Assembly (NCBI RefSeq): GCF_900240945.1
Contig: NZ_OESG01000012.1
Coordinates: 558,001-622,000, forward strand
Direction of reading: 5' to 3'
From: Mycobacterium sp. 3519A
GTDB lineage: Bacteria > Actinomycetota > Actinomycetes > Mycobacteriales > Mycobacteriaceae
DNA length: 64,000 nt
Below the pieces are notes generated by a model. It saw only the letters and a list, made by a program, of their open reading frames with translations, was not told the origin of the DNA and searched no databases. How positions within the stretch are numbered: the first letter of the stretch is position 1; each line of letters begins with the position of its first letter. The translations under genes and the position numbers were made by a program. Of this stretch, positions 1 to 50,989 are shown in pieces.

Positions 1-285
1 GCCGGTATTGCGCAGCCGCTCCCGGCCGGCCTCCATCTCCTCGGTCTCGACGGTTTCCGGCCGATACCCCTCGAGGCCGAGCAGCACCGCAGGCAATGTG
101 CCGTGGCCCCGGCCGGTCGCCGCCAGCGATCCGTACAACTCGACACGGACGTCGGCCACCCGCGGCAAGGTTCCAGCAGCCTTGAGGTCGGCGACGAAGT
201 TCGCGGCCGCCCGCATCGGCCCGACGGTGTGCGAACTCGACGGACCGATGCCCACCTTGAACAACTCGAAGACGCTGATCGTCAC
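1..285 (-). CDS. sdaA: L-serine dehydratase, N-terminal part (runs off the left edge)
   Basis: This is the first 95 codons of an iron-sulfur L-serine ammonia-lyase, which converts serine to pyruvate and ammonia. The visible N-terminus carries the family signature [16 protein letters not shown] followed by the start of the beta domain; the catalytic alpha domain and cluster cysteines lie outside the window. The GTG start at 285 is preceded by GGAAGGGA at a suitable distance, and the ATG just upstream in another frame reaches a stop after two codons. It lies 18 nt downstream of glyA on the same strand, so the two are probably cotranscribed. In this context it would drain serine made from betaine-derived glycine into central metabolism. 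Identification rests on the N-terminus only. Confidence 0.88.
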
Positions 286-303
286 TGAAACATCCCTTCC
301 CGG

Positions 304-1572
304 TCAGAGCTGCGGGTACAGCGGGTGACGCTCGGCGAGTTCACTCACGCCACGGGCAAGCTTCGCGGTGTCCGCGTCCGGCGCCGCGATCAAGCACTGC
401 GCGATCAGATCCGCCACGGCGGCGAAATCCTCCGCCGCGAATCCGCGGGCCGCCAACGCGGGCGTGCCGATGCGCAGCCCGGAGGTCACCATCGGCGGCC
501 GCGGATCGAACGGAACGGCGTTGCGGTTCACCGTGATTCCGATCGTCGCCAGCCGGTCCTCGGCCTGACGCCCGTCGATCTCCGCGTTGCGCAGGTCGAC
601 CAACACCAGATGCACATCCGTGCCGCCGGTCAGCACGGCGATGCCCGCGTCCCGAACGTCCGGCTGCGACAACCGCTCGGCGAGGATGCGCGCACCCTCG
701 ACGACCCGCTGCTGGCGCTCGACGAAATCGGGTTCGGCGGCCATCTTGAAGGCCACCGCCTTGGCTGCGATCACGTGCTCCAGCGGGCCGCCCTGCTGGC
801 CCGGGAACACCGCCGAATTGATCTTCTTCGCGATGTCGGCGTCCTTGGTCAAGATGATGCCGCCGCGCGGTCCGCCCAACGTCTTGTGCGTTGTGGAGGT
901 GACCACGTGCGCGTGCGGCACCGGCGACGGATGCAGGCCTGCCGCAACCAGACCCGCGAAATGCGCCATGTCGACCATCAGATAGGCGCCGACCTCGTCG
1001 GCGATCTCGCGGAATCGGGCGAAATCCTGATAGCGCGGATACGCCGACCAACCCGCGATGATCATCTGCGGCCGGTGCTCGCGGGCCGCCTCAGCCACCT
1101 GGTCCATGTCGATCCGATAGTCGTCTCGCGAGACGCCGTACGCCGCAACGGTGTACAGCTTGCCGGAGAAGTTCAGCCGCATCCCATGGGTGAGGTGCCC
1201 ACCGCAGTCCAGCGACAGCCGGAGGATGGTGTCCCCCGGCTTCAGCAGCGCGTGCATCCCCGCGGCGTTGGCCGGCGCACCGGAATGTGGCTGGACGTTG
1301 GCGAACCCCGCGCCGAACAGCGCCTTGACCCGATCGATCGCGATCTGCTCGATGACGTCGGCGTCCCCGCACCCGCCGTAGTAGCGCCGACCTGGATAGC
1401 CCTCGGCGTACTTGTTGGTCAGCACGGACCCCTGCGCCTGCATCACGGCCAGCGGCGCATGATTCTCCGAGGCGATCATCTCCAGGCCGGTGCGTTGTCG
1501 GTCGAGTTCCTTGTCGATCAGCTCGGCCACCTCGGGGTCGAAATCCGCCAGGTGCGCGTCCAGAACGCTCAT
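304..1572 (-). CDS. glyA: Serine hydroxymethyltransferase
   Basis: PLP-dependent cytoplasmic enzyme that interconverts glycine plus 5,10-methylene-tetrahydrofolate with serine. The 422-residue product begins MSVLDAHL, and the PLP-lysine segment [11 protein letters not shown] is intact. The start at 1572 is preferred over an in-frame ATG at 1605 because GGAG lies 7 nt before it. The gene is followed by sdaA and preceded by a divergent betaine aldehyde dehydrogenase gene. Its upstream region carries the CTGATATATCAG palindrome that also precedes soxB, so I infer this copy is dedicated to betaine/sarcosine catabolism, consuming glycine and the methylene-THF made by SoxA and dimethylglycine dehydrogenase. 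Whether the genome has another, housekeeping glyA cannot be seen here. Confidence 0.95.
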
Positions 1573-1617
1573 GCACGTACTCCGTTCATGGGAAAAATCA
1601 TGCATACCAGATAATCA

Positions 1618-1633
1618 GTAACTGATATATCAG
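1618..1633. promoter_or_regulatory. Putative GntR operator upstream of glyA-sdaA
   Basis: The string GTAACTGATATATCAG contains the 12-bp perfect palindrome CTGATATATCAG (1622-1633). The identical 16 nt occurs at 23559-23574 next to soxB and the GntR gene, in the same orientation relative to the downstream gene. A degenerate relative, CAGATAATCAG, abuts it at 1608-1618. The palindrome lies 47-50 nt upstream of the glyA start. Assignment to the GntR regulator is inference from its proximity to the second copy. Confidence 0.6.
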
Positions 1634-1755
1634 GGTGTGACGGGCATCATAGCTGCGTGCGGCTTCGACGGTCAAGGGTGCCCATGTCCGGCTTGTTACC
1701 AGCGAGTTTCGTTTCACTCCCGCCCTTGACAGTGATGTCCGCCACGGTCCACTCT

Positions 1756-1791
1756 GTTGCATGTAGAGGGTTCTATTGCGCGATACGCAAC
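1756..1791 (+). promoter_or_regulatory. Putative IclR-type operator, copy A (betB-opu promoter)
   Basis: This element begins GTTGC and ends GCAAC, and contains the inverted repeat TTGCG-CGATA-CGCAA (1777-1791). It aligns without gaps over about 33 nt with elements at 7544 and 11082. A TTGACA hexamer starts exactly 30 nt upstream at 1726, as it also does for the copy at 7544. I propose it as the binding site of the IclR regulator encoded at 10284-11060; no binding data are implied. Confidence 0.5.
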
Positions 1792-1821
1792 GTTGACGTA
1801 GCTGGGCGAGAGGCCGACTAG

Positions 1822-3300
1822 GTGGCGGAACACCTGAATTTGTACATCGCGGGCGAGTGGCGCCCCGCGCACGGCGATGCTCGCCGAGAGATCCGATGTC
1901 CTGCCGACGGCCAGTTGGTCGCCCAGGCGGCAGAGGCAACCACCGAGGACGCCCACGCTGCGATCGCCGCCGCGCGGGAAGCCTTCGACACCGGCCCCTG
2001 GCCGCACACGCCGGAACGCGACCGGGCCGAGGTGTTGCGGCGCACCGCCGACCTGATCGACCGCGACCGCAAGGATTTCGTCCGCGCCGAGGCGCTCGAC
2101 ACCGGTAAGCGGATCGTCGAGGCCGAATACGACATGGACGACGTCGTCGGCTGCCTGCGCTACTACGCGGGCGTCGGCGGCACCGAGGCGGGCCGCGTCG
2201 TCGACACCGGCAAGGCCGACGCGATCAGCCGCCTTGTCTACGAGCCGATCGGCGTATGCGGACTGATCACACCGTGGAATTACCCTCTGCTGCAAGCGAG
2301 TTGGAAGGTCGCGCCGGCGCTGCTGGCGGGCAACACCTTCGTGCTGAAGCCAAGCGAACTGACGCCGTCGACGGCTGTTCTGTTGATGCGCGCGCTGGAA
2401 GAGGCGGGCCTGCCCGCAGGCGTCGCGAACCTGGTGCTCGGCGCCGGGCCCGTGGCGGGTGCGCCGCTGTCGGAACACCCCGACGTGGACATGGTGTCGT
2501 TCACCGGCGGTGTGCCCTCGGGCACCCGCGTCATGGCCGCCGCCGCCGCGACCGTCAAACGGGTCGCGCTCGAACTCGGCGGCAAGAACCCCAACGTGGT
2601 GTTCGCCGACGCCGATTTCGACACCGCGGTCGACTTCGCGCTCACCGCAGTGTTTCTGCATTCAGGGCAGGTGTGTTCGGCGGGTGCGCGACTCATCGTC
2701 GAGCAGTCCATCCACGACCGGTTCGTCGACGAAGTCGTGGCGCGTGCCCAGCGGATCAGGCTCGGCGGACCGTTCGACCCCGAGGCCGAGACCGGTCCGC
2801 TGATCTCGGCCGCGCACCGCGACAAGGTCGAGGCCTACGTCGCCAAGGGTATCGAGGAAGGCGCCGTGCTGCGCTGCGGCGGACGTCGTCCCGAAGACGA
2901 CCTCTTGCGCGACGGATTCTTCTATCCCCCAACTATTCTCGATGGTTGCCACTCGAAAATGACTGTGACACAGGAAGAGTCGTTCGGTCCGGTGCTGACT
3001 GTTGAGACATTCACCGACGAGGACGACGCCGTACGGTTGGCCAACGACACCGTCTACGGCTTGGCAGGCGCGGTCTGGACGCAGGACGCCGGTAAGGCGC
3101 AACGCGTGGCGAACCGACTGCGGCACGGCACCATCTGGATCAACGACTACCACCCCTACGTGCCGCAGGCCGAGTGGGGCGGCATGAAGCGCTCCGGCAA
3201 CGGCCGCGAACTCGGCCGCGTCGGTCTCGACGAGTATCGCGAGATCAAACACATCTGGCAGAACACCAATCCACGGCCCGAGCGGTGGTTTCGGGGTTGA
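1822..3300 (+). CDS. betB: Betaine aldehyde dehydrogenase (aldehyde dehydrogenase family)
   Basis: NAD(P)-dependent aldehyde dehydrogenase, 492 residues with a GTG start. Visible family features are the cofactor-binding stretch FTGGVPSGTRVM, the active-site glutamate region LELGGKNPNVVF, the nucleophile segment GQVCSAGARL and the C-terminal segment containing ESFGPVLTVETF. Sequence alone gives only the superfamily. The betaine aldehyde assignment comes from position: directly upstream of an OpuA-type betaine importer and in the same island as a choline dehydrogenase-like gene. It is divergent from glyA, and GAGAGG precedes the start at about 8 nt. It would oxidise betaine aldehyde to glycine betaine. 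Another small polar aldehyde is possible. Confidence 0.8.
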   Translation: MAEHLNLYIAGEWRPAHGDARREIRCPADGQLVAQAAEATTEDAHAAIAAAREAFDTGPWPHTPERDRAEVLRRTADLIDRDRKDFVRAEALDTGKRIVEAEYDMDDVVGCLRYYAGVGGTEAGRVVDTGKADAISRLVYEPIGVCGLITPWNYPLLQASWKVAPALLAGNTFVLKPSELTPSTAVLLMRALEEAGLPAGVANLVLGAGPVAGAPLSEHPDVDMVSFTGGVPSGTRVMAAAAATVKRVALELGGKNPNVVFADADFDTAVDFALTAVFLHSGQVCSAGARLIVEQSIHDRFVDEVVARAQRIRLGGPFDPEAETGPLISAAHRDKVEAYVAKGIEEGAVLRCGGRRPEDDLLRDGFFYPPTILDGCHSKMTVTQEESFGPVLTVETFTDEDDAVRLANDTVYGLAGAVWTQDAGKAQRVANRLRHGTIWINDYHPYVPQAEWGGMKRSGNGRELGRVGLDEYREIKHIWQNTNPRPERWFRG

Positions 3301-3356: not shown

Positions 3357-4451
3357 GTGGCGATCCACACCGAGAGCGCGCCCACCGCGGTGGCCGCGCC
3401 GCCCACTCCCCGCCGCGGTGACGCCGAACTGAGCGTCCAAGGCCTGTGGAAGGTCTTCGGCAACAAGGCATCCGATGTCGCATGCGACGAGTCGATCGAG
3501 CGGCTCAGCGTGCAGGACATCAAGAAGAAGACGGGTTGCGCGGTCGCCGTCCGGGACGTCAGCTTCGACGTGGGATGCGGTGAGGTGTTCGTCGTCATGG
3601 GCCTGTCCGGTTCAGGCAAGTCGACGTTGGTGCGATGCCTGACCCGGCTCATCGAGCCGACCAAGGGGCAGGTGGTGTTCCAGGGCACCGACATCATGTC
3701 TGCCGACGAGAATCAGTTGCGCGATCTGCGCCGCCGCAAGGTGTCGATGGTCTTCCAGCACTTCGGCCTGCTGCCGCACCGCCGGGTGCTGGAGAACGTG
3801 GCGTACGGCCTGGAGGTCAAGGGCACCCCGAAGAAGGAACGGATGCAACGGGCCGCCGAGGTCACCGAACTGGTCGGCCTCGCCGGATTCGAATACTCCT
3901 ACCCGGATCAGCTCTCGGGCGGTATGAAGCAGCGCGTCGGCCTGGCCCGCGCGCTGGCCAGCGATCCCGACATGCTGCTGTTCGACGAGCCGTTCTCGGC
4001 GCTGGACCCGCTGATCCGCCGCGACATGCAAAACGAGGTCATCCGTCTGCACCACGAGATGGGCAAGACGATGGTGTTCATCACCCACGACCTGTCCGAA
4101 GCGCTCAAGCTGGGCGACCGGATCCTGATCATGCGCAACGGCGAGGTGGTGCAGATCGGCACCGGCGACGAACTGGTCGGTGCCCCCGCCGACGACTACG
4201 TCCGCGAATTCGTCAGCGACGTGCCGCGCTCACGGGTGCTGACGCTGAAGTGGATCATGCGCGAGAAGCGTGCCGACGACTCGCTCGACGGTCCCGAAAT
4301 GAGCCCCGACACCGTGATTCGCGACGCCGTCGATCCGGTGCTGGCCGCCGACAAGCCGATCAAGGTGGTCTCGGACGGCGAACTGCTCGGCGTGGTCGGC
4401 CGCAGCGAGATCCTCGCGGTGATCGGCAAGGTCGACGAGGGCGGTGCGTGA
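3357..4451 (+). CDS. opuAA: Glycine betaine/proline ABC transporter, ATP-binding protein
   Basis: Cytoplasmic ATPase of the OpuA/ProU class, 364 residues. Walker [10 protein letters not shown] lies at residues 82-90, followed by the signature [15 protein letters not shown], Walker [14 protein letters not shown] and the H-loop [13 protein letters not shown]. After the nucleotide-binding domain about 90 residues remain, with a partial CBS-like segment ([20 protein letters not shown]), as is usual for ProV/OpuAA proteins that respond to osmotic state. A TAGGAG motif precedes the GTG start. The stop overlaps the next start as ATGA, so it is translationally coupled to the permease. Substrate choice is inferred from the island; it probably imports betaine as nutrient as well as osmolyte. 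Confidence 0.9.
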
Positions 4452-6502
4452 TGGCCACCCTCGCCGTCGATGCTCCCCCTGCGCCACCGTCACCGGAGGC
4501 GCAGTCGCGGACGTCGTGGTTCACCGAACGCGGGCCCGCCCAATTCGTCGCGGTCATGTGTGCGGTGCTCGGGCTGTGGATCATCCTGTACCAGTTCCTG
4601 GCAGGCCGAAACACGTTGGCGCAGGCCCCCGCCGACACCAAACCGCTGCACGTCTGGCTGTCCGAACTGCAGACGCGCGTCGGTGAAGGCCGAAACAGCA
4701 ACCCGCTATTCACCTATTTCTTCAACCCCATCCGATCCGTGATCGACGCGTTCGGCACCGCCATCGCCGACCTGATCGCGCATCCGGTGGACGGCCGGCC
4801 CGTCCCCTACATCGGCTGGCTTGGCGTGGTGGTGCTGCTGACCTTCCTGGCGTGGGTGCTCGGCAATTGGAAGGTCGGACTGCTCACCCTGTGCGGATTC
4901 TTGTTCATGGGCCTGCAGGGCCTGTGGCAGGACAGCATGGAGACACTGGCGCTGACCATCGCGGCCGTCGCGATCTCGCTGCTGATCGGAATCCCACTGG
5001 GCATCTGGGCGGGAATATCCGACGGCTTCAACCGGGTGATCACCCCGGTGCTGGACTTCATGCAGATCCTGCCGTCGTTCGTCTACCTTGCCCCGTTGAC
5101 GCTGGCGTTCCTGATCGGCCCGGCAGCGGCCATCATCGCGACCGTCATCTACGCGGCCCCGCCGGTCATCCGGCTCACCGCCCACGGCATCCGGTCGGTG
5201 CCCTCCGAATCGCGTGAGGCCGTCGAATCGCTGGGCGCCACCCGATCGCAGGAACTGTTCGGTGCGCTGCTGCCAATGGCCAAGCGCACCATCGTGCTTG
5301 GCATCAACCAGACCATCATGGCGGCCTTGGCGATGGTGACCATCGCCGCGCTGATCGCCGCGCCCGGCCTCGGCCAGGTGGTGGTCCAGGCGCTGTCCAC
5401 CCAGGACGTCGGCACCGCGTTCAACGCCGGCCTGGCCATCGTGATCATGGCGATCATCCTGGACCGGACCACCACCGCGGCCAGCGAGCGCGTCGAAACA
5501 CAACGACGAAAGTCCGCTGAGCCCAACAAGTATCGCCGCCCGGGCATCATCGTCGGCGCCGTTGTCACGGCGATCGCGATCTGGCTGTCCTACACCTACC
5601 AGTTGGTCGCGCTGTTCCCGTCGTCGCTGCAACTCGGTTCCGTTCACATCGGACTCGACGTCGGCACGCCGATCATCAACGCCGCCAACGCCGTGACCAA
5701 CTGGGCGCAGACCAGCTTCTCCGGAGTGACCAACGGCATCAAGGACGTGGTCACCGCCGTGGCGCTGGACCCGCTGCAGAAACTGCTGGACAACTCGCCG
5801 TGGTGGCTCACATTCGTGGCGATCACCGTGATCGCGGCGATCGTCGGCGGCCGGATCGCGGCGCTGATCACCGCCGTGTGCCTGCTTCTGATCCTGTGGC
5901 CGCTGGAGTTGTGGCAGGCGACCATGGACACCCTGGCCGCGGTGCTGGTGGCCACGGTCATCGTCGTCGCACTCGGCGTCGTCGTCGGAGTGTGGATGGG
6001 TCGCAGTCCCACCGCGGACAGGTTCGTCCGACCGTTCCTCGACGCCGCGCAGACCATGCCGTCGTTCGTGTATCTGGTGCCGTTCCTGGCGTTGTTCTCG
6101 GCGTCGCGGTTCACCGGCATCGTCGCGGCCATCGTGTACGCGGCGCCGGTGTCCATCAAGATCATGGCCGACGGGATCCGCGGTGTCTCCGCCGAGACGG
6201 TCGAAGCGGCGCGCTCGGTGGGGTCGAACACCTGGCAGGTGATCAGCAAGGTGCAACTGCCGATGGCGGTGCGCTCGCTGACATTGGCCACCAATCAGGG
6301 CCTCATATATGTGCTTTCGATGGTGGTGGTCGCCGGTCTGGTCGGCGGCGGCGCGCTGGGCTACCTGGTGGTGGCCGGCTTCGCGCAGACCAGCCTGTTC
6401 GGTAAGGGACTCGCCGCCGGTCTGGCCATCGTGCTGCTCGGCACGATCCTCGACCGAACTACCGCGGCCGCATCGAAACGGATAGGACGGGTCAGCCAAT
6501 GA
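4451..6502 (+). CDS. opuAB: Glycine betaine ABC transporter, tandem (fused) permease
   Basis: Polytopic inner-membrane protein of 683 residues, about twice a normal ProW/OpuAB permease. It contains two BPD_transp_1 domains. The first has the coupling region GIRSVPSESREAVESLGAT, the second GIRGVSAETVEAARSVGSN, and each domain also has an M/LPSFVYL segment. The two halves are homologous, so one polypeptide probably supplies both membrane subunits. The ATG start lies in the ATGA overlap with the ATPase gene, and the stop overlaps the substrate-binding lipoprotein gene by 4 nt. This gives a compact three-gene importer operon behind betB. Confidence 0.9.
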   Translation: MATLAVDAPPAPPSPEAQSRTSWFTERGPAQFVAVMCAVLGLWIILYQFLAGRNTLAQAPADTKPLHVWLSELQTRVGEGRNSNPLFTYFFNPIRSVIDAFGTAIADLIAHPVDGRPVPYIGWLGVVVLLTFLAWVLGNWKVGLLTLCGFLFMGLQGLWQDSMETLALTIAAVAISLLIGIPLGIWAGISDGFNRVITPVLDFMQILPSFVYLAPLTLAFLIGPAAAIIATVIYAAPPVIRLTAHGIRSVPSESREAVESLGATRSQELFGALLPMAKRTIVLGINQTIMAALAMVTIAALIAAPGLGQVVVQALSTQDVGTAFNAGLAIVIMAIILDRTTTAASERVETQRRKSAEPNKYRRPGIIVGAVVTAIAIWLSYTYQLVALFPSSLQLGSVHIGLDVGTPIINAANAVTNWAQTSFSGVTNGIKDVVTAVALDPLQKLLDNSPWWLTFVAITVIAAIVGGRIAALITAVCLLLILWPLELWQATMDTLAAVLVATVIVVALGVVVGVWMGRSPTADRFVRPFLDAAQTMPSFVYLVPFLALFSASRFTGIVAAIVYAAPVSIKIMADGIRGVSAETVEAARSVGSNTWQVISKVQLPMAVRSLTLATNQGLIYVLSMVVVAGLVGGGALGYLVVAGFAQTSLFGKGLAAGLAIVLLGTILDRTTAAASKRIGRVSQ

Positions 6503-7476
6503 AGCGAATCGCCATCGCCGCAGTGGCACTTGCGCTGCTCGTATCGGGGTGCAACGCCACCAAGGTGTCCGACCTGCAGGCCCGCGGCGAACTCAAGCCG
6601 GGTGCCAGGCCGTGCGGCACCTTCAACCTGGCCATCAACTCGTGGGTCGGGTACGAGGCCAACGCGGCCGTCATCACCTACCTCGCCGAGAATGTGTTGG
6701 GCTGCTTCGTCAAACAGCGGCACATCGCGGAACAGGTGTCGTGGCAGGGCATGTCGACCGGACAGGTGGACGCCATCCTCGAGAACTGGGGCCACGACGA
6801 CCTCAGGCAGCAGTACATCGACAACATGGGCGTCGCGCAGAGCGCAGGCTCCACCGGCATCGAGGGCGAGATCGGTTGGTACGTGCCGCCGTGGATGGTC
6901 GAGCAGTATCCGGACATCACCGACTGGCGCAATCTGAACAAGTACGCCCACTTGTTCAAGACCTCCGAATCCGGTGACAAGGGGCAGTTGCTCGACGGTG
7001 ATCCGGCATACGTGACCAACGACGACGCATTGGTGGCCAACCTCGACTTGAACTACAAGGTGGTCCAGGGCGGCAGCGAGACGGCGCTGATCTCGAGCAT
7101 TCGGCAGGCCCAACAACAACGCAAACCGCTGCTCGCGTACTTCTACTCGCCGCAATGGCTGCTGAGCGAGGTGCCGATGGTCAAGGTCAAGCTGCCGCCC
7201 TACACCAAGGGCTGCGACGACGATCCCGCCAAGATCGCCTGCGACTACCCGGCCTACGACCTGGACAAGATCGTCTCGACGAAGTTCGCGGAATCCGGCA
7301 GTCCGGCCTACACGCTGGTGAAGAACTTCCAGTGGACGGCCGAGGACCAGAACTCCGTGGCCCGGTCGATCGCCGACGGCATGAGTGACGACGAGGCCGC
7401 CAAGAAGTTCATCGACGCCCACCCGCAGTTGGTCGCCAAGTGGCTGGCGGGCACGGGCGCCGAGAACGCGGCGTAA
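6499..7476 (+). CDS. opuAC: Glycine betaine substrate-binding lipoprotein
   Basis: Extracytoplasmic ligand-binding subunit of the importer, 325 residues. The N-terminus is a short signal peptide ending in the lipobox VSGC with Cys18, so it is probably lipid-anchored to the outer face of the plasma membrane. The mature part fits the OpuAC/ProX family (FNLAINSWVGYEANAAVITYL, then WQGMSTGQVDAILENWG), with many Trp and Tyr residues suited to a cation-pi cage for quaternary ammonium ligands. It overlaps the permease gene by 4 nt and is the last gene of the betB-opu operon. Specificity could also include choline or proline betaine. Confidence 0.88.
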   Translation: MKRIAIAAVALALLVSGCNATKVSDLQARGELKPGARPCGTFNLAINSWVGYEANAAVITYLAENVLGCFVKQRHIAEQVSWQGMSTGQVDAILENWGHDDLRQQYIDNMGVAQSAGSTGIEGEIGWYVPPWMVEQYPDITDWRNLNKYAHLFKTSESGDKGQLLDGDPAYVTNDDALVANLDLNYKVVQGGSETALISSIRQAQQQRKPLLAYFYSPQWLLSEVPMVKVKLPPYTKGCDDDPAKIACDYPAYDLDKIVSTKFAESGSPAYTLVKNFQWTAEDQNSVARSIADGMSDDEAAKKFIDAHPQLVAKWLAGTGAENAA

Positions 7477-7601: not shown

Positions 7602-7961
7602 ATGGTCGTGCTGGAAATCTGCCCGCTCGCGGCCCTGCCTCGCGGGGAGGCGCGCAGGGTCGAAGCGGACCCGCCGATCGCCGTCTTCCACACCGACGAC
7701 GGCGAGGTGTTCGCGATCGACGACACCTGCACGCATCAGGACGCGTCACTGGCCGACGGCTGGCTCGAGGGCTGCGAGATCGAATGCCCTTTGCACGCTT
7801 CGCGTTTCAACCTGCGCACCGGTCAGGTCGACGAACCACCGGCGAAGCTTCCGGTGCGCACGCACGAGGTGGTCATTGTCGACGGCGTGATCAACGTCGT
7901 CCTCGACGATGCGCCGCCCAACCTTCCCCCCGGTGTCACCACCCGCGGGGCTGGGCAGTGA
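7602..7961 (+). CDS. Rieske-type [2Fe-2S] ferredoxin
   Basis: Small soluble electron carrier of 119 residues. The two Rieske ligand motifs CTH and CPLH are present (CTHQDASL, then CPLHASRF), as in bacterial dioxygenase ferredoxins. GAAGGAGGTC immediately precedes the ATG. The stop overlaps the next gene as GTGA, so the ferredoxin and its reductase are coupled. It is followed by the reductase and by a Rieske oxygenase alpha subunit. I infer that it passes electrons from the reductase to the betaine demethylase. Typical GbcB-type systems use a single reductase instead, so this three-component arrangement is worth noting. Confidence 0.9.
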   Translation: MVVLEICPLAALPRGEARRVEADPPIAVFHTDDGEVFAIDDTCTHQDASLADGWLEGCEIECPLHASRFNLRTGQVDEPPAKLPVRTHEVVIVDGVINVVLDDAPPNLPPGVTTRGAGQ

Positions 7962-11060: not shown

Positions 11061-11066
11061 AGCGCA

Positions 11067-11072: not shown

Positions 11073-11081
11073 CGAGAAGCG

Positions 11082-11158: not shown

Positions 11159-15318
<4,160 letters not shown>

Positions 15319-15413: not shown

Positions 15414-16499
15414 TCAGAGCACCACGACCGACCGCAGCACCTCGCCGCGGTGCATGGTCGCGAACGCGTCCTCGACCTGGTCCAGCTTGATGCGCTCGCT
15501 GACGAACTTGTCCAGCGGCAGCCTGCCCTGCTGGTAGAGATCCACCAGCGCCGGGAAGTCACGCTCGGGCAGGCAGTCGCCGTACCATGACGACTTCAGC
15601 GACCCGCCGCGGGAGAAGAAGTCGATCAGCGGCATCTCCAGCGTCATATCGGGAGTCGGCACGCCCACCAGCACCACGGTGCCCGCGAGATCACGCGCGT
15701 AGAAGGCCTGCTTCCAGGTCTCCGGGCGGCCGACCGCGTCGACGACCACGTCGGCGCCAAAGCCGTCGGTCAGGTCCTGCACGGCGGCCACAGCGTCCAC
15801 CTTCGACGCGTCGACGGTGTGGGTGGCGCCCAATTCGACTGCCATCTGCAGCTTCTTGGGGTCGCGGTCGATCGCGATGATCGGTGAGGCGCCCGCCAAC
15901 CGGGCACCGGCGATCGCGGCATCGCCGACACCGCCGCAGCCGATCACCGCGACAGAGTCGCCGCGCGACACGTTGCCGGTGTTGACCGCCGCACCGAGAC
16001 CGGCCATCACGCCGCAGCCGAGCAGGCCGACGACCGCGGGGTCGGCATTCGGATCGACCTTCGTGCACTGTCCCTCGTGCACAAGGGTTTTGTCCGCGAA
16101 CGCGCCGATCCCCAGCGCCGGCGTCAACGCGGTGCCGTCGGTCAGCGTCATCGGCGCGCTCGCGTTGAAGGTGTCGAAGCAGTACCACGGCCTGCCCCGC
16201 TTGCATGCCCGGCAGTTGCCGCACACCGCGCGCCAGTTCAGCACGACGAAGTCGCCGACCGCCACGTGGGTGACCGCGCTACCAATCGATTCGACGACGC
16301 CCGCCGCCTCGTGGCCGAGCAGGAACGGGAACTCGTCGTTGATGCCGCCCTCGCGATACGTCAGGTCGGTGTGGCACACCCCGCACGCCTGGATGCGCAC
16401 GACCACGTCGTTCGGGCCGGGATCGGGGATGACGATGTCGACCAGTTCGACCGGGGCGCCCTTGCTGCGCGCAATGACACCCTGAACCTGCTGTGGCAT
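15414..16499 (-). CDS. mscR: S-(hydroxymethyl)mycothiol dehydrogenase (mycothiol-dependent formaldehyde dehydrogenase)
   Basis: Zinc-dependent medium-chain alcohol dehydrogenase, 361 residues, closely resembling M. tuberculosis MscR/AdhE2 as I recall it ([52 protein letters not shown]). The structural-zinc cysteines ([16 protein letters not shown]) and the NAD fold [16 protein letters not shown] are present. It oxidises the mycothiol-formaldehyde adduct to S-formyl-mycothiol and can also act as a nitrosomycothiol reductase. The start at 16499 has AGGAAGG before it; an in-frame ATG at 16550 does not. It is the last gene of the soxBDAG operon, 35 nt after the DgcA-like gene, which fits removal of formaldehyde released by N-demethylation. 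Confidence 0.92.
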
Positions 16500-16534
16500 G
16501 TGATGACCTTCCTGGATTGTGGGAAAACGGTTGC

Positions 16535-18580
16535 TTACAGCGCGAGGCACAACCGGTACGCGTCGTATACCGCCGCGTGGATGTTGCGGCTGGCCACCGC
16601 GTCGCCGATGCGGAACAGCTGGTAGGTCCCGTCCGGATTACGTTGAACTGTCTGCGGATTGAGGTCGAGCAGCGCTTGCTGGTCCACTTCGCCGAGGTTC
16701 GACGAACCGGGCACCAGCGCGAAGTACAACTCGTCCGACGGCAGCGTGCCGTGCTCGACGACGACCTGGTCGACCATGCGCTGCCGGGTGACGTGTGCGT
16801 ACTCGTTGTACAGATCGACTTCGAGCCTGCCGTCCTTGCGCCGCACCGCGGTCAGCCGATCGTTGAGCGTCACGCGGACGTCGTGTTCGGCGAACACCTT
16901 GAAATAGCCGGGGTAGTTGACCCCGCCGACGTCAGGTGCCAACGTCCGCTCCGGCGTGACGAACTCGATGTTCGCACCCGCCCGCGCCAGCACCTCGGCG
17001 GCGTCGAGGCCGGGATGCTGCCCGTTGTCGTCGAACAGCAGCACGTCGCCCTTGACCCGGAACGCACCGCTGAGCACATCCCACCCGTCGGACACCAATT
17101 GTGCGCCCTCGGTGAGGAATTCGGTGTTCGGGACGCCACCGGTGGCCACCACCACCAGATCGGGATTCTCGGCGAGCACATCGTCGGCCTCGGCGTAGGT
17201 GTTGAACCGGATGTCGACGTCGAGGTGTTTGCACTCGGCCAGTCGCCAGTCGACGATGCCGATGAGGTCGCGCCGCCGCGGCGACGACGACGCGAGCCGG
17301 ATCTGCCCGCCCGCGGCGTCGCTGGCCTCCAGCACCACCACCTGATGCCCGCGCAACCCGAGCACCCGCGCGGCTTCGAGGCCCGCGGGACCGGCGCCGA
17401 CGACGACGGCCTTGCGCGGCGTACCCGTCGCGGGCGACACGTGGTGCGGCAACCGGTCCTCCCGACCCGTCGCCGGGTTGTGGATGCACTTGGCGTCGCG
17501 GGCCTGGTAGATCTCGTCGAGGCAGAGGCTGGCGCCGACGCAGGGTCGGATCCGGTCCTCCTCTCCCGCTTGGATTTTCGCCACGATGTGCGGATCGGCG
17601 ATGTGCGCGCGGGTCATCCCGACCAGGTCGAGCAGGCCGTCGCGGATGGCGTGCCTGGCGGTCGCCACGTCGTTGATCCGGGACGCATGCATCACCGGGA
17701 CGCCGACCTGACGCTTGATCTCGCCGGCGAACTCCAGATGCGGCGCCACCGGCGTGCCCATCGGCGGGATCACGCGTGACAACGCCTCGTCGCTGCCCAT
17801 GTATCCGCGGATGATGCTGATGAAGTCGACGCCCTCGGCGACCACCTGCTGCGCGATCGCGAGCGCCTCCTCGCGGCCGAGGCCGCCGGGCATCTCCTCG
17901 TCGAAAGACATCCGGATACCGACGGCGAAGTCGGGCCCCGCCGCCTCGCGCACCGCGCGAATCACCCTCAGCGGGAACCGCATCCGCGCTTCGAGGCTGC
18001 CGCCGAACTCGTCGTCGCGGTGGTTGGTCAGCGGCGACCAGAACGCATCGAGCAGGTGAGTGTAGGCCTCGATCTCGATGCCGTCCAGGCCTGCCTCGCG
18101 GCACCGGGAGGTGGCGTCGGCGTAGGCCCGCACGATGCGGTCCATATCCCACTCCTCGGCCACCTTCGGGAACGCCCGGTGCGCGGGCTCCCGCAGCGGC
18201 GACGGGTACACCACCGGCAGCCAGTCGCCGTCGTAGTTGCTGGTGCGCCGGCCCAGATGGGTGATCTGGCACATCAGCGCGGTGCCGTGCTCGTGCACGC
18301 CGTAGGCGAGTTCGCGTAGCCACGGCACGATTTCGTCCTTGTAGACGTGCAGGTTGCCGAATGCGGCCGGGCTGTCGGGCGCGACGACCGCGGACCCGCC
18401 CATCATGGTCAACCCGATGCCGCCCTTCGCCTTTTCCTCGTGGTAGAGGCGGTAGCGCGCCTTGGGCATTCCGTCTTCGGTATAGGACGGTTCGTGCGAG
18501 GTGCTGACCACGCGGTTGCGCAGCGTCAGATGCTTCAGTTCGAACGGCTGCATCAACGGGTCGATGAGCTGACGAGTCAT
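16535..18580 (-). CDS. TMADH/DgcA-like flavin oxidoreductase, candidate dimethylglycine (N-methyl) demethylase
   Basis: 681-residue protein of the trimethylamine dehydrogenase/2,4-dienoyl-CoA reductase class. An N-terminal FMN TIM barrel ([36 protein letters not shown]) is followed by an iron-sulfur segment and a C-terminal FAD/NAD fold ([17 protein letters not shown]). In the cluster segment the family pattern CxxC is CVGA here, followed by SLC and a final Cys 12 residues later, so the second cysteine ligand is missing. The start ATG overlaps the soxG stop (ATGA), with AGGAG in front. DgcA of pseudomonads demethylates dimethylglycine with a DgcB partner; no DgcB-like gene is visible here. 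Proline betaine or another methylamine is an alternative substrate. Confidence 0.72.
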
Positions 18581-19155
18581 AGCGAGTACTCCTGCGCGGC
18601 GTCGAGTAACCAATCGGCCAGATAGCGGGCGAACGACGAGCGGACCAGAATGCGGTAGTCGGCGCCGCTGTCGTCGACGGCCAGCAGCACGATCCCGGTG
18701 CGCCCCAAAGTGGTCTGCACAGCCGCCCCTTCGCCGAACTTCGTCGGATGCACGTCGATGGCGCACCCCTTGCTCAGGACGTCGCGGCTGTGGCGGCCGC
18801 GCAATCGCAGCGTGGTGCGTTGTGCGGAGACGTCGACGGCGCTGCCGCCGTGCGGCGCGAGGGCCTCGCGCAGCCGGGCCTCCAGATCGGCGCCCGCCAA
18901 CTGAGTGCCGGTCACCAACCATTCGTCGGGGCCGAGCCAAATCACCGTGGTGTCAGTGCCTTTGGCGTAGGTGGACGCAGCCGTCGGCGGTTCGATCCCG
19001 AGCACTCCGGTCACTGCATCAACACCAGAAGCGTCGGCGCGCAGTTCGACCATCGTGACGAACGGTTCCTCGGCGATCGACACCGAATCGGACAGTTCGG
19101 CGAACCGTCCCGCCCACGGCTCTAACGGGCTGGTGCGTTGCAGGGTGTCAGCCAT
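18577..19155 (-). CDS. soxG: Sarcosine oxidase, gamma subunit
   Basis: 192-residue small subunit of heterotetrameric sarcosine oxidase. Typical features are the GcvT-like fold with WLGPDEWLVTG near the middle and VDVSAQRTTLRLRGRHSRDVL downstream. It overlaps soxA by 8 nt and the DgcA-like gene by 4 nt, so all are coupled. The subunit is mainly structural, stabilising the alpha-beta complex that oxidises sarcosine to glycine. The gene order B-D-A-G is canonical for the family. Confidence 0.92.
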   Translation of the reverse strand: MADTLQRTSPLEPWAGRFAELSDSVSIAEEPFVTMVELRADASGVDAVTGVLGIEPPTAASTYAKGTDTTVIWLGPDEWLVTGTQLAGADLEARLREALAPHGGSAVDVSAQRTTLRLRGRHSRDVLSKGCAIDVHPTKFGEGAAVQTTLGRTGIVLLAVDDSGADYRILVRSSFARYLADWLLDAAQEYSL

Positions 19156-22000
19156 CGCGGCGCGCTCCTTCCGGGTCGACCAATACCGAACCGGTGATTT
19201 CGACGGGGATCAGCGCTCCGTCGACCGGCACATGCAGCGTCTCGCCGATGCGGGACTGTCCCGCCTTGACGAGCGCCAGTGCGAACGTGCGGCCGAGCTC
19301 GGCGCTTCGGTAACTGGAGGTGACGTGCCCCAGCATCGGCACCGGCGGCGGCGGAAGCACATCGCCGTCACAGAACTCGACGATCTGCGATCCCTCAGGC
19401 AGTCGGCTGACCCTGTCGACCGGCAACAGCCCGACGAGTTGTTTACGCGACGGGTTCTGGTTCTCCGCCCTGCTGAACGAGCGCTTGCCGATGAAGTCGG
19501 GCTTCTTCTTCGACACCGCCCATGCCATCCCGAGATCGTGTGGAGTGACCGTGCCGTCGGTGTCCTGCCCGATGATCGGATAGCCCTTCTCCGCGCGCAG
19601 CACGTGCATGGTCTCGGTGCCGTACGGCGTGATGCCGTACGGGGCTCCCGCCGCGATCAACCGCTCCCACACCGCGGGCGCATGCCACCAATCGACGTTG
19701 ACCTCGTAGGCCAGTTCACCGGAGAAGCTGACCCGGCCCAACCGCACCGGCACCCCGGCCAGGCTGGTCGACCGCCAGGTCATGAACGGGAAGGCCTCGT
19801 TGCTGACGTCGACGTCGCCGAACACCGCCCCGATCACGTCCCGTGACCGCGGGCCGACCACCGGGAACGTCGCCCAGTGATCGGTCACCGAGGCGAGCGA
19901 CACCTGCAGTTGCGGCCATTCCGTCTGCAGCCACTCCTCCATCCAGTCAAGGATTTTCGCCGCACCGCCGGTGGTGGTGTACACCAGGAACCGGTCGTCG
20001 GCCAGCCGCATCACGGTGCCGTCATCGATCACCATGCCGTCGACACCGCACATCACGCCGTAGCGGACAGCGCCGACCTTCAGGCTGCTCATCAGGTTGG
20101 TGTAGATGCGGTCGAGCAGTTCGGCGGCGTCACGGCCGGACACGTCGATCTTGCCCAGCGTCGACCCGTCGAGGATGCCGACACTTGTTCGCACGGCGGC
20201 ACATTCGCGTAGCACCGCATCGTCCATACTTTCTATGGCGGCCTCGCCGCCCAGCGGATAGTACCGCGGACGCTTCCACTGCCCGACGTCCTCGAACACC
20301 GCGCCGTTGGCGACGTGCCAGTCGTGCAGCGCCGTGGTGCGCTCCGGGTCGAACAACGCGCCCCGGTCGCGGCCCGCCAACGCGGCGAATGCGACCGGCG
20401 TGTACGGCGGCCGAAATGTGGTGGTGCCCAACTTCTCGATGGGCACGCCGAGCAGTTCGGCGGTGATACCGGAGGCGATCACACCCGACGTCTTGCCCTG
20501 GTCGTGCGCCGTGCCGATGGTGGTGTAGCGCTTGATGTGCTCCACCGAGCGCATCCCCGCGCCCACCGCGCGCGCCACATCGGCGACGGTGGCGTCGCGC
20601 TGAATGTCGACGAACTGATCCTGCTCACGTCCCGGCACCCGCCACAACACCAGACCGGGGCCTGCGGCAACCTCCGAACCCTCGGGCAGCGGATCATGCG
20701 CCGCCACACCGAGCGCCGCGGCCGCCGAGTCCCGCCCCTCGCGCAGGCAACCCGCCAGATCCATGACGCCGTTGGCCGCGCCCGCGACGCTGACGCCGTC
20801 GAGGTGCTCGCCGGGGACGAAGCCACCCAGCGCCGCGTCGTAGCGCAGCACGCCCCGGGCCTGGCTGAACAGGTGCACCGCCGGGTTCCAGCCGCCGCTG
20901 ACCAACAGCGTGTCACACGAAACAGTCTCGGCGGCAGCGGTATTCGTGCCGTCGAAGTCAGCGATCAGGGCGTCGGTGATGCGGTCCTCACCCCGGGTTC
21001 CGGTGACGACGGCGCCTGCCCGCAGTGGAATGCCTCTGCGGTCGCACGCGTCCTTCAGCGCATCCGGCACCTTGGCGCGGGCGTCGACGACCAGCTGGAT
21101 CTGCACACCAGCATCGGCCAGGTCGAACGCGGCGGCGTAGGCGCTGTCGTTGGTGGTGAACACCACCGTCGTGTGCCCGACCAGCACGCCGTAGCGGTGC
21201 AGGAAGGTTCTCGCGCTGTGCGCCAGCATGATTCCGGGCAGGTCGTTGTCGGCGAACACGATGGGCCGCTCGTGGGCACCGGTTGCGATCAGCACGTGAC
21301 TGGCGCGGATGCGCCACACTCGTTGGCGTGAGATGCCTGCCGGCGCGGCGGCACCGAGGTGGTCGGTGCGCCGCTCGAGGGCAAGGACGAAGCCGTCGTC
21401 GTAGTGCCCGAATGCGGTGGTGCGCTGCAGGTGTCGGACCTCGGGGTAGGTCGCCAACTCCTCGACGGCGGCCTGCACCCAGTCCAGGGCGTCGGCGCCG
21501 CCGATCCGGTCGGTGCTGCCGAGCAGCGAACCACCGGCCTCGGACTGCTCGTCGACCAGCACCACCCTGGCGCCGGAGCGCGCCGCGGTCAGCGCCGCGC
21601 TCAGTCCGGCGGGCCCCGCGCCGACGATCAGCACATCGGCGCGCGCATGCATCGCGTCGTAGCGGGCGGAGTCGGCGATGTCGGCCAGCCTGCCCTGTCC
21701 CGGCAGGCCGCGGGCAGCCAGTCCGTCGTACAACTCGACCGTCGAGGCCAGCAGCATGGGTTCGGGGAACGGGGTCTCGATCTGCACCAGTCCGCCGGTG
21801 TCCTCGGCCCATGCCGCTGAGATGCCGCGCGGGCGGCCGAGTTTGACGCTGGTTGCGATCTTGTGCACGCCGTTGGCGAGCAGTGCCGACGCCAACGTGT
21901 CACCGGGATGGCCGGTGTAGGTGCGACCGTCGAAGGTGAATTCGTGGCGGCCGCCGCGATCGATGCGGCCACCCTTGGCGGTGCGGAACGGTGCGGTCAT
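19148..22000 (-). CDS. soxA: Sarcosine oxidase, alpha subunit
   Basis: 950-residue subunit. The N-terminus is a ferredoxin-like Fer2_4 domain (FTFDGRTYTGHPGDTLASALL), followed by an NAD-binding fold ([20 protein letters not shown]), a central linker, and a C-terminal GcvT-type folate domain (ERLIAAGAPYGITPYGTETM; LRAEKGYPIIGQDTDGTVTP). The folate domain lets the enzyme pass the oxidised methyl group to tetrahydrofolate, giving methylene-THF instead of free formaldehyde. The start at 22000 lies in the ATGA overlap with soxD; longer in-frame starts upstream would run through soxD and were rejected. Length matches the usual ~960 residues of the family. Confidence 0.95.
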   Translation of the reverse strand: MTAPFRTAKGGRIDRGGRHEFTFDGRTYTGHPGDTLASALLANGVHKIATSVKLGRPRGISAAWAEDTGGLVQIETPFPEPMLLASTVELYDGLAARGLPGQGRLADIADSARYDAMHARADVLIVGAGPAGLSAALTAARSGARVVLVDEQSEAGGSLLGSTDRIGGADALDWVQAAVEELATYPEVRHLQRTTAFGHYDDGFVLALERRTDHLGAAAPAGISRQRVWRIRASHVLIATGAHERPIVFADNDLPGIMLAHSARTFLHRYGVLVGHTTVVFTTNDSAYAAAFDLADAGVQIQLVVDARAKVPDALKDACDRRGIPLRAGAVVTGTRGEDRITDALIADFDGTNTAAAETVSCDTLLVSGGWNPAVHLFSQARGVLRYDAALGGFVPGEHLDGVSVAGAANGVMDLAGCLREGRDSAAAALGVAAHDPLPEGSEVAAGPGLVLWRVPGREQDQFVDIQRDATVADVARAVGAGMRSVEHIKRYTTIGTAHDQGKTSGVIASGITAELLGVPIEKLGTTTFRPPYTPVAFAALAGRDRGALFDPERTTALHDWHVANGAVFEDVGQWKRPRYYPLGGEAAIESMDDAVLRECAAVRTSVGILDGSTLGKIDVSGRDAAELLDRIYTNLMSSLKVGAVRYGVMCGVDGMVIDDGTVMRLADDRFLVYTTTGGAAKILDWMEEWLQTEWPQLQVSLASVTDHWATFPVVGPRSRDVIGAVFGDVDVSNEAFPFMTWRSTSLAGVPVRLGRVSFSGELAYEVNVDWWHAPAVWERLIAAGAPYGITPYGTETMHVLRAEKGYPIIGQDTDGTVTPHDLGMAWAVSKKKPDFIGKRSFSRAENQNPSRKQLVGLLPVDRVSRLPEGSQIVEFCDGDVLPPPPVPMLGHVTSSYRSAELGRTFALALVKAGQSRIGETLHVPVDGALIPVEITGSVLVDPEGARRDG

Positions 22001-22275
22001 CAGATCACCGGTTTCGGATCGTCGATGCGGTAGACAGTCTCGAAGCGATAGGTCGCGGTGTCGCGCACGGCGTTGAACCACCGCCGGCATCCGGCGCTGT
22101 GCACCCAGCGCTCGGTGAACTTGCCCTTGGGGTTGGCGCGGAAGAACACGTAATGCGCCCACTGTTCGTCGGTCAGCACGTACGGGTCGTCGGGGTAGGC
22201 GACGTGCGCCTGCCCGCCGTAATGGAATTCGGCCTCTTCACGGGGCCCGCAGTACGGGCATTCGATGAGTTGCAT
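22000..22275 (-). CDS. soxD: Sarcosine oxidase, delta subunit
   Basis: 91-residue zinc-binding small subunit. The start MQLIECPYCGPREEAEFHYGG and the later WVHSAGCRRWFNAVRDT supply the expected Cys/His zinc ligands. GGGAG precedes the ATG. It lies 24 nt after soxB and overlaps soxA by 4 nt, so it is translated within the soxBDAG operon. Its role is structural in the alpha-beta-gamma-delta complex. Confidence 0.94.
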   Translation of the reverse strand: MQLIECPYCGPREEAEFHYGGQAHVAYPDDPYVLTDEQWAHYVFFRANPKGKFTERWVHSAGCRRWFNAVRDTATYRFETVYRIDDPKPVI

Positions 22276-22299
22276 TGCTGCTCCCGTCTTTTGAAAGTC

Positions 22300-23544
22300 T
22301 CAGTGCGCGACGGCGGCGGCGCCGTGTTCGTCGACAAGCGCTCCCGTGACGAACCGGTCCAGGTGGAACGGGGCCACGTACGGGTGGGGTTCGTCGTTGG
22401 CGATGGTGTCGGCCATGCACCAACCGATGCCGGGGGTGGCCTTGAATCCGCCTGTGCCCCAACCACAGTTGAGGTACAGGTTGCGGTACGGGGTGCGGCC
22501 GATGATCGGCGAGGCGTCGGGCGTGGTGTCGACGATGCCGCCCCAGGTGCGCAGCAGATGTGCCCTGGCGAAGATCGGGAACAGTTCGACGGCCGCCGCC
22601 ATCTGCCGCTCGATGATGTGGAACGCGCCGCGCTGCCCGTACCCGTTGTACGAGTCGATGCCTGCGCCCATCACCAGTTCGCCCTTGTGCGCCTGGGACA
22701 CATAGACGTGCACGGCGTTGGACATCACGATGGTCGGGTGCACGGGTTCGAGCAACTCCGAGACCAGCGCCTGCAGCGGATGACTCTGCAGCGGCACCCG
22801 GAATCCGAGCATGTCGGTGAGCACCGAGGTGTGGCCCGCCGCGCACATGGCGACCTGCCCGGCCGAGATGTCGCCGAGCGTGGTGCGTACCCCGGTGATC
22901 CGGTCCCCGTCGGTGACGAAGCCGGTGACCTCGCAGCCCTGCAGCAGATCCACGCCCGCCGCGTCGACCCGACGCGCGAAACCCCAAGCGACGTAGTCGT
23001 GTTTGGCGATCCCGGCCCTGGGCTGATACGTCGCGCCGAGCACCGGGTAGCGCAGATCGGCGGAGATGTTGACGATCGGGCAGATCTTCTTGACCTCGTC
23101 CGGTTCGAGCCACTCGGCGTCGATTCCGTTGAGCACGTTGGCTTCTACGCGACGGACGCTGTCGCGGACGTCCTGCAGGCTGTGCGCCAGGTTGAGCACC
23201 CCGCGCTGGCTGAACAGGATCGGATAGCCGAGGTCGTCCTCGAGGCCCTCCCACAACTTCAGCGAGTGCTCGTAGATCGCGGCGCTTTCGTCCCACAGAT
23301 AGTTCGACCGGATCAACGTCGTGTTGCGGGCCATGTTGCCGCCCGCGAGCCAGCCCTTCTCCAGCACCGCCACGTTGGTGATGCCGTGGTTGCGCACCAG
23401 ATAGTGCGCGGTCGCCAGGCCATGCCCGCCGCCGCCGATGATCACGACGTCGTAGGACCGCTTCGGCTCGGGATTGCGCCAGAGGAAATCGGGATGATCG
23501 GGCAGGTGCGCGCCCGGCGCCTGAGGACTCACGCGGCTCTCCAT
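22300..23544 (-). CDS. soxB: Sarcosine oxidase, beta subunit
   Basis: 414-residue catalytic flavoprotein subunit of sarcosine oxidase, which removes the methyl group of sarcosine to give glycine. The FAD fold ([21 protein letters not shown]) and the DAO-family C-terminal motif [20 protein letters not shown] are present. I chose the ATG at 23544 (MESRVSPQ) because the longer frame would run across the palindromic operator at 23561-23576 and the promoter. It is the first gene of a six-gene operon soxB-soxD-soxA-soxG-dgcA-like-mscR. The operator lies only 16 nt before the start codon, which predicts repression by direct occlusion. Confidence 0.95.
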
Positions 23545-23558
23545 CGAACAGTCGTTTC

Positions 23559-23576
23559 GTAACTGATATATCAGTT
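23559..23576. promoter_or_regulatory. Putative GntR operator between soxB and its regulator
   Basis: AACTGATATATCAGTT (23561-23576) is a perfect 16-bp palindrome in the divergent promoter of soxB and the GntR gene. Sixteen nt of it plus flank (GTAACTGATATATCAG) recur at 1618-1633 upstream of glyA. The position next to the regulator gene makes autoregulation likely. Confidence 0.65.
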
Positions 23577-23638
23577 GTGGAGCACAGTATGGTACGTTGA
23601 TTTGCACGTCAAGGGTCAATGTCCGACAGGAGACCGAG

Positions 23639-24304
23639 ATGAGCGTGGAACTGGTCGACACCGGCGAGGGCGCCACCCAGTCCAACGCCGACCTGGCCTA
23701 TCAGATCATTCGCGAGCGCCTGATCATGCTCGACATCCGGCCCAGCGAGCCGATCAACGACGAGGGCCTGGCCCGCCAGCTCGGGTTCGGCCGCACCCCG
23801 GTGCGCGAGGCGCTCAAGCGGCTCGAGCGCGACCGCCTGGTGATCGCCTATCCCCGCCGCGGCACGTTCGCCACCACCGTCGACATCACCGACCTCGCGC
23901 ACATCCAGGAGATCCGCAGGCAGCTGGAGCCGGTCGTCGCCGCCCGCGCCGCCACCGCCGCCTCCCAGGAGACCAAGGCCAAACTGTCGGAACTCGCCGA
24001 CGACATCGCCAAACTCGATCCCGCCGACGACCCGCGCACGCTGCTGCGGTTCGACGTGCGGGTGCACACCGCGATCTACAAGGCCTCCGGCAACCCGTAT
24101 CTCGAGGACGTGCTCGTCTGCCAGGATGCCCACGCCACCCGCATCTGGTGTCTGTTCCTGGACCGGTTGTCGAACGTGGCCGAGCACGTCACCGAACACG
24201 TGTCGCTGCTGCGGGCGATCATCGACGGCGACGCCGAGCTGGCCGCCAAACTGGCCGCCGAACACGTCGCCGGTTTCGAAAAGGCCGTCCGCGCAGTCCT
24301 TTAG
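23639..24304 (+). CDS. GntR-family regulator (FadR/FCD subfamily)
   Basis: 221-residue regulator. An N-terminal winged helix ([40 protein letters not shown]) is followed by an all-helical FCD effector domain with metal/ligand residues in the usual places ([38 protein letters not shown]). CAGGAG precedes the ATG at 23639; an in-frame ATG at 23597 has no comparable site. Divergent from soxB across a 16-bp palindrome repeated at glyA, it probably controls sarcosine/glycine use as one regulon. The likely ligands are sarcosine, glycine or dimethylglycine, but nothing in the sequence decides this. Confidence 0.9.
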
Positions 24305-50982: not shown

Positions 50983-50989
50983 GTGCACT

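Follow-up and report, generated by a model that had tools for sequence, protein, structure and literature searches.

Positions 1 to 24304 of the 64,000-nucleotide stretch of Mycobacterium sp. 3519A analyzed here (the window; G000:C12:558001-622000, in a 7.3-Mb genome) hold an island of genes leading from choline and glycine betaine to pyruvate. In its 5' half, sdaA and glyA on the reverse strand are followed on the forward strand by betB, the importer genes opuAA, opuAB, and opuAC, and the genes for a ferredoxin, a ferredoxin reductase, and a Rieske oxygenase. The 3' half starts with iclR on the reverse strand, continues with betA and the gene for a dimethylglycine oxidase (DMGO) on the forward strand, then with mscR, a gene of the Old Yellow Enzyme (OYE) family, soxG, soxA, soxD, and soxB on the reverse strand, and ends with gntR on the forward strand. 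Proteasome genes flank the island (pafA upstream; prcA, prcB, and dop downstream), and sdaA runs on beyond the window edge (full frame 458 amino acids, L009:6909-8285). Genes were called from frame composition and from profile searches of the window proteins, with the following result:

1-285, - strand: sdaA, L-serine ammonia-lyase, N-terminal part (Pfam SDH_beta; TIGR00720 652 bits, cut-off 345)
304-1605, - strand: glyA, serine hydroxymethyltransferase (NF000586 590 bits, cut-off 335)
1822-3300, + strand: betB-like betaine aldehyde dehydrogenase (TIGR01804 604.5 bits, below the cut-off of 668.6)
3357-4451, + strand: opuAA/proV-type ATPase of a betaine/choline importer (TIGR01186 367.6 bits, cut-off 326.6)
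4451-6502, + strand: opuAB permease, 683 amino acids (two BPD_transp_1 stretches)
6499-7476, + strand: opuAC substrate-binding protein (TIGR03414 E 5e-16, below cut-off)
7602-7961, + strand: Rieske ferredoxin (CxH..CxxH motif)
7958-9127, + strand: HcaD/AndAa-type ferredoxin reductase (below curated cut-offs; 4-bp overlap with the ferredoxin gene)
9154-10275, + strand: Rieske oxygenase, probable glycine betaine demethylase (GbcA model 229 bits, cut-off 670)
10284-11090, - strand: IclR-family regulator (NF045644 BhcR 192.8 bits, below the cut-off of 350)
11159-12862, + strand: betA, choline dehydrogenase (TIGR01810 834.4 bits, cut-off 732.1)
12862-15318, + strand: DMGO, a fusion of FAD oxidase and GcvT (1pj5 1260.6 bits; 1-bp overlap with betA)
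15414-16550 (longest frame), - strand: mscR, S-(hydroxymethyl)mycothiol dehydrogenase (TIGR03451 691 bits, cut-off 512.9)
16535-18580, - strand: flavoprotein of the OYE/DgcA-StcD family, 681 amino acids (Oxidored_FMN and Pyr_redox_2)
18577-19155, - strand: soxG, sarcosine oxidase gamma (Pfam SoxG)
19148-22003, - strand: soxA, sarcosine oxidase alpha with a GcvT-like half (TIGR01372 1201 bits on the longest frame, 19148-22162; cut-off 1164)
22000-22275, - strand: soxD, sarcosine oxidase delta (TIGR01374 127 bits, cut-off 116.5)
22300-23544, - strand: soxB, sarcosine oxidase beta (TIGR01373 611.8 bits on the longest frame, 22300-23685; cut-off 529)
23597-24304, + strand: GntR-family regulator, divergent from soxB (profile search)

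An earlier, sequence-only reading of this DNA had described betA, betB, an OpuA importer, a Rieske set, a GcvT-fused DMG (dimethylglycine) enzyme, soxBDAG, mscR, glyA, and sdaA as contiguous, together with two regulators, and profile searches recovered all of these genes. Its inventory was sound for the genes it named; however, the large OYE-family gene was overlooked, and the gene called betB, although found in place, scores below the curated betaine aldehyde dehydrogenase cut-off.

We consider it somewhat probable (a probability of about 0.58) that the block is a complete catabolic island for choline and glycine betaine, in which DMG is demethylated by either DMGO or the OYE-family protein. 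Gene content, gene overlaps, and the co-occurrence and complementarity of genes across genomes are direct observations, from which we infer substrates, products, and regulation. The OpuA importer would bring in choline or betaine, BetA and BetB would convert choline to glycine betaine, and the three-component Rieske oxygenase would take the first methyl group off betaine as formaldehyde. The DMG step could then follow one of two routes: through DMGO, which would load the carbon on tetrahydrofolate (THF), or through the OYE-family protein, which would release formaldehyde for the adjacent MscR. SoxBDAG would convert sarcosine to glycine and methylene-THF, the unit that GlyA requires for serine, and SdaA would convert serine to pyruvate. 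With both DMG enzymes present, surplus methyl could be either assimilated or burnt. The series choline, betaine, DMG, sarcosine, glycine, serine, and pyruvate had already been proposed for the block, and both the anatomy of the island and the comparison across genomes agree with it.

The GcvT-fusion protein matches the DMGO of A. globiformis (1pj5_A) over residues 2-817 at the score listed, versus 345-352 bits for mitochondrial dimethylglycine dehydrogenases, and the earlier label of dimethylglycine dehydrogenase gives way accordingly. Both the full-length FAD oxidase half and the GcvT half are matched (domains DAO, FAO_M, GCV_T, and GCV_T_C), and the segments SHAPGLV (from residue 46) and RSDLTV (from residue 547) align with SHAPGLV and RSDITV of 1pj5, which we take to carry the flavin-linking His and the folate-site Asp. 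By sequence, the enzyme is closely related to the oxidase from Arthrobacter. A 33% DMGO-like protein is encoded elsewhere in the same genome (G000:C13:1948166-1950574). The sarcosine oxidase is of the heterotetrameric type, with SoxB, SoxD, and SoxA above their curated cut-offs and SoxG recognized by Pfam. Hydrogen peroxide is expected from both DMGO and SoxBDAG; a catalase (Pfam) is encoded at window 43321-44811 on the - strand.

The Rieske oxygenase has the domains PF00355 and PF00848, the CxH and CxxH motif from residue 79, and an ENFMECYH segment. Its match to the GbcA model (NF058607) falls far short of the cut-off, and its partners are a separate Rieske ferredoxin and an HcaD-type reductase in a three-component system rather than the two-component GbcB-type arrangement, so that the gbcA label of the sequence-only reading does not fit. 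The NF058607 cut-off was dropped as a test of substrate and is not decisive for it, because oxygenases beside dgcB-like genes also fall below (459 bits in Sphaerotilus and 454 bits in Azospirillum, versus 807 bits in Halomonas).

The OYE-family frame is intact, with Oxidored_FMN and Pyr_redox domains; its gene overlaps soxG by 4 bp, and mscR comes next. Among the best 120 of 8000 scored relatives in a protein search, the names include OYE-type reductases, NADH:flavin oxidoreductases, and N-methyl(-L-)proline demethylase. Identity is 61% to a protein encoded next to a carnitine operon in Sinorhizobium, 54-56% to plasmid-borne proteins annotated as StcD (R. etli) and HpbA (Paracoccus), and 44% to a DgcA candidate of Sphaerotilus, which was taken as DgcA by synteny (dgcB-like, electron transfer flavoprotein (ETF)-like, glyA, and Rieske genes lie alongside). 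The motif C-x2-A-x2-C occurs in all 52 rows that are DgcA-, StcD-, or HpbA-like, with Ala standing for the second cysteine of the Fe-S motif of related dehydrogenases, a position that is Cys in the chains of 2,4-dienoyl-CoA reductase and 6l6j aligned with them; the x11 spacing to the last cysteine is kept in 51 of the 52 (the exception is G200). In the window protein, the three-cysteine motif spans residues 347-365 (window 17486-17542, - strand). An assignment to the mycofactocin system was rejected: the match to TIGR03997 is 494 bits against a cut-off of 793, and the StcD, HpbA, and DgcA-like references also lie below it (464-560 bits).

In a tree of 66 OYE-family rows, the window protein belongs to a 16-row clade (support 100/99) whose every row comes from a locus with three-component Rieske genes, soxBDAG, or both. 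It lies outside the DgcA clade formed by three rows, assigned to DgcA by a dgcB neighbor (100/99), and outside the StcD/HpbA clade (100/100 for those rows versus the other grouped rows). Farther out, its neighbors are mostly actinobacterial, and 12 of them adjoin gbcA/gbcB-like genes. The clade is an uncharacterized actinobacterial branch, and this branch and the putative doubling of the DMG step are what is new at this locus. In Halomonas sp. M20 (L270), a DgcA-like gene is accompanied by dgcB- and ETF-like genes, and a second OYE-family gene lies nearby, beside a gbcA that is above the curated cut-off.

Comparison across the genus made use of 198 genomes drawn evenly from a larger group, with thresholds of E<=1e-200 for DMGO, E<=1e-150 for OYE, E<=1e-60 for the Rieske oxygenase, and E<=1e-150 for soxA. 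Matches were found in 43 (DMGO), 15 (OYE), 66 (Rieske oxygenase), and 22 (soxA) genomes. Rieske-positive genomes are the 51 with at least 60% identity, the 15 with a match of 34-37% having been set aside before the tally; these 51 include every DMGO genome (43) and every soxA genome (22), and one OYE genome (G316, 57% identity) lies outside. For the sarcosine step, a whole-genome search found soxA in 22 of the 51; the other 29 have a gene like that of monomeric sarcosine oxidase within the region retrieved around their Rieske gene, and no genome showed both types or neither. The cross-genome comparison that the sequence-only reading had proposed thus supports the pathway, as every Rieske-positive genome has a sarcosine-step gene.

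The distribution at the DMG step is complementary. DMGO is present in 43 of the 51, and an OYE gene in 7 of the remaining 8 (six at 80% identity or more; G205 at 57%). In the eighth, G240, DMGO lies in pieces (L176, about 4343-6771); this genome does have a Rieske gene and a monomeric sarcosine oxidase-like gene. With G240 excluded, OYE occurs in 7/7 genomes without DMGO versus 7/43 with it (Fisher p 3.4e-5 over 50 genomes, uncorrected for kinship). DMGO coexists with an OYE of at least 80% identity in six genomes and with one of 45% in G200. Each of the 12 genus genomes whose OYE identity is at least 80% has soxA, versus 22/198 overall. A search at E<=1e-40 found nothing DMGO-like in G290, G298, G177, G250, or G125 (the last from outside the genus); all five have Rieske, OYE, and soxA genes. 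The closest DMGO-less case is G304, which keeps the gene order of the window, mostly at 84-94% identity, and has a metallo-beta-lactamase-like gene (assigned by eye from HAHNDH) at the position of DMGO. Because 43 of the 51 have DMGO and 7 of the other 8 have OYE, the OYE-family protein is probably a second DMG demethylase, one predicted to be folate-free and to release formaldehyde.

Several observations weigh against this assignment. G304 and G228, both of which also have soxA, carry at another site a DMGO paralogue (34%) whose product might act on DMG, and the G304 assembly is a metagenome bin. Kinship among the OYE-positive genomes means that the tallies are not independent. OYE identity is only 57% in G205 and 45% in G200. 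Some stretches around the Rieske gene are short (e.g., 5-8 kb in G157, G187 C445, G211, and G286), and absences there are weak. No DgcB or dedicated ETF gene occurs among the island genes, the search for dgcB having been confined to the island, and the nearest named OYE homologues are the N-methylproline demethylases, closer than DgcA.

That last point leads to an alternative in which the OYE-family protein is an N-methylproline demethylase. The island would then serve both glycine betaine (through DMGO and SoxBDAG) and proline betaine (through a shared Rieske oxygenase, OYE, and MscR), and DMGO and OYE would not be redundant. The homology to StcD and HpbA fits this, as do the six genus genomes in which DMGO and OYE coexist, and the nearest solved structures of the Rieske oxygenase (3vca, 4qup, 3n0q, and CntA), the first two of which we presume to be proline-betaine-type demethylases. 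Streptomyces and Nocardioides loci also pair OYE with gbcAB-like genes, and neither sox nor DMGO was matched in the sequence fetched around them (at most 10 kb a side). However, the window protein falls outside the StcD/HpbA clade and has the loop motif IPPMGTP (16/16 rows of its clade) rather than IPIQGM or IPVQGM, no proline-specific gene was recognized in the window island, and the seven DMGO-less Rieske-positive genomes keep soxA, with OYE the best DMG-step candidate found in them (the 34% paralogue of G304 and G228 aside; G205 was left out of the search at E<=1e-40). On balance this account is unlikely, though it has a real share of the probability.

A broader proposal, with a little less than an even chance, starts again from DMG as the substrate: the three-cysteine, OYE/TMADH-type actinobacterial clade would be a folate-free DMG demethylase that replaces DMGO among mycobacteria, and the window organism, which keeps both enzymes, could switch surplus methyl between assimilation (DMGO and folate) and dissimilation (OYE and MscR). 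The genus offers a natural experiment, in which genomes have one gene type or the other for sarcosine and have DMGO, OYE, or both for DMG, and raises the question of whether cells with surplus one-carbon units save or burn them by choice of demethylase. If the proposal is true, a branch still without a name in a familiar flavoprotein family would gain a function.

Conservation of the block also bears on its purpose. Among the fetched stretches, only those of G000, G207, G304, and G177 combine a betA orthologue of at least 50% identity with orthologues of the importer, betB, Rieske, sox, glyA, and sdaA genes, and two of the four are without DMGO. The earlier remark that the locus is unusual for mycobacteria holds for the whole block; the core of Rieske plus DMGO or OYE genes, found in 51/198 genus genomes, is not rare. 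Osmoprotectant supply could be the primary role of the block, with catabolism secondary, given that OpuA and BetAB suffice to provide glycine betaine from choline. This seems improbable: every demethylation step lies in the same block with glyA and sdaA, and a sarcosine-step gene accompanies the Rieske gene in 51/51 genomes, whereas importer and betA orthologues were found in only four stretches.

By the established reactions, betaine yields, for each glycine formed, one formaldehyde (Rieske step), one methylene-THF from DMGO, and one methylene-THF from SoxBDAG, and GlyA consumes one methylene-THF per serine. The unit from SoxBDAG alone therefore balances GlyA, and that from DMGO is surplus. 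The pathway yields surplus one-carbon units, and only one of the two folate-bound carbons can enter the serine of the same molecule; the earlier claim that both of the last N-methyl groups do so fails, as one glycine accepts one methylene-THF. Near DMGO, purU is found in 5 of 8 genus genomes with a closely related DMGO (at 14-66 bp in G338, G293, G166, and G295, and at 1.6 kb in G187), and was not found near DMGO in G000, G207, or G179. The window genome has one purU above the cut-off, outside the island (G000:C13:1448083). The gene for B12-dependent methionine synthase, metH (NF007024 2159 bits), lies at window 47248-50988 on the - strand, 23 kb from the island, and its product is a possible sink for surplus folate-bound carbon.

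The likelier start of mscR is the ATG at 16499, which follows the stop codon of OYE by 35 bp, because the TIGR03451 family match begins at residue 22 of the longest frame. As a core gene, mscR has a match in 189/198 genus genomes. The extra, island copy adjoins OYE in 12/12 genomes with OYE at 80% or more and occurs in 2 of the 39 other Rieske-positive genomes (G264 and G295). Formaldehyde from the Rieske step is expected in all 51 genomes; the extra mscR therefore tracks OYE better than it tracks the Rieske enzyme, contrary to the earlier assignment of MscR to Rieske-step formaldehyde. A strict partnership of mscR with OYE was rejected on account of G264 and G295, whose mscR near a core without OYE makes the link non-exclusive and, together with the alignment of the island mscR of G177 in two pieces, counts against the proposed formaldehyde route. 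A metallo-beta-lactamase-like gene lies next to mscR in G177, G290, G298, G304, and G338.

These results also bear on a closed loop in which both of the last N-methyl groups would pass through folate to the same serine, MscR would serve the Rieske step only, and the OYE-family protein would be an unrelated bystander reductase. The GcvT halves of both DMGO and SoxA are what such a loop would use. It is contradicted by the stoichiometry, with its surplus of a second methylene-THF, and by purU near DMGO in five of the eight related loci; the overlap of the OYE gene with soxG, its complementarity to DMGO, and the tracking of OYE by the island mscR make it very improbable indeed.

Much work has been done on betaine degradation in Proteobacteria and Arthrobacter. 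The glycine betaine cluster of Pseudomonas and Vibrio reads gbcAB, dgcAB-etf(fixAB), soxBDAG, glyA1, sda; in V. natriegens, growth on betaine depends on both gbcA and dgcA, and growth on DMG depends on dgcA (PMC12093977). The window shares with it the order of steps to pyruvate, a Rieske start, an OYE-family enzyme for DMG (DgcA in the known cluster, a candidate in the window), SoxBDAG, GlyA, and a serine dehydratase; unlike it, the window has a three-component Rieske system, an added DMGO, no DgcB gene in the island, formaldehyde disposal of the mycothiol type, and IclR and GntR regulators. Arthrobacter and Corynebacterium are described as having glyA-soxBDAG-sdaA-purU clusters and DMGO (PMC3534580, citing Meskys 2001 and Suzuki 2005). 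Here too DMGO and SoxBDAG accompany glyA and sdaA in an actinobacterium, whereas the window adds the Rieske set, betAB, the importer, OYE, and mscR, and its block is without purU. StcD and HpbA of Rhizobium and Paracoccus share the protein family and the three-cysteine motif, and R. etli also has formaldehyde-disposal genes nearby; the window protein differs in clade, loop motif, and neighborhood. A Colwellia cluster has also been described, with the statement that several non-homologous proteins can perform these steps (PMC3691474). The available part of a paper on cold stress in M. smegmatis treats choline genes as osmoprotection and leaves sarcosine and dimethylglycine unmentioned (PMC10454040), and no paper on mycobacterial betaine or sarcosine catabolism was found by title or abstract opening in the open-licence literature. 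The type of pathway is already known from Pseudomonas and Arthrobacter; the arrangement, in which two unrelated enzymes are candidates for demethylating DMG, is a new variant.

Other mycobacteria carry a second kind of island (type II; e.g., G052, G198, and G281), in which DMGO, a monomeric sarcosine oxidase-like gene, Rieske, and betB genes are followed at some remove by iclR. Shared with the window are the Rieske oxygenase (62-65%), DMGO (59-62%), and adjoining proteasome genes; in contrast to the window, the monomeric sarcosine oxidase-like gene replaces SoxBDAG, no OYE or OpuA orthologue occurs in the fetched stretch, and mscR is found only in G264. Islands of this second kind adjoin proteasome genes in L152, L178, L179, and others. 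Among the 51 Rieske-positive genomes, 20 show prcB or a pafA of at least 90% identity in the region fetched (6 show both genes), with both island types represented; the prcA-pafA interval is thus a recurrent home of betaine genes in the genus. A recent foreign insertion was dropped as an explanation, since this flanking suggests an old site with rearrangement.

Across the family set of 151 genomes, DMGO was found in 38 (E<=1e-200) and OYE in 4 (E<=1e-150). The GbcA model was matched (E<=1e-60) in 5/151, none above the cut-off, and in 0/14 of the control. In all five (G006, G028, G038, G090, and G104), the contig with the gene for the GbcA-like oxygenase (398-415 bits) also carries DMGO, at a distance of 1.5-7.2 kb, so that other genera pair DMGO with another oxygenase. 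Beyond the island, an Integrase-core/HTH_38 protein is encoded at window 52227-53510 on the + strand, presumably an IS30-type transposase, judging from its domain make-up.

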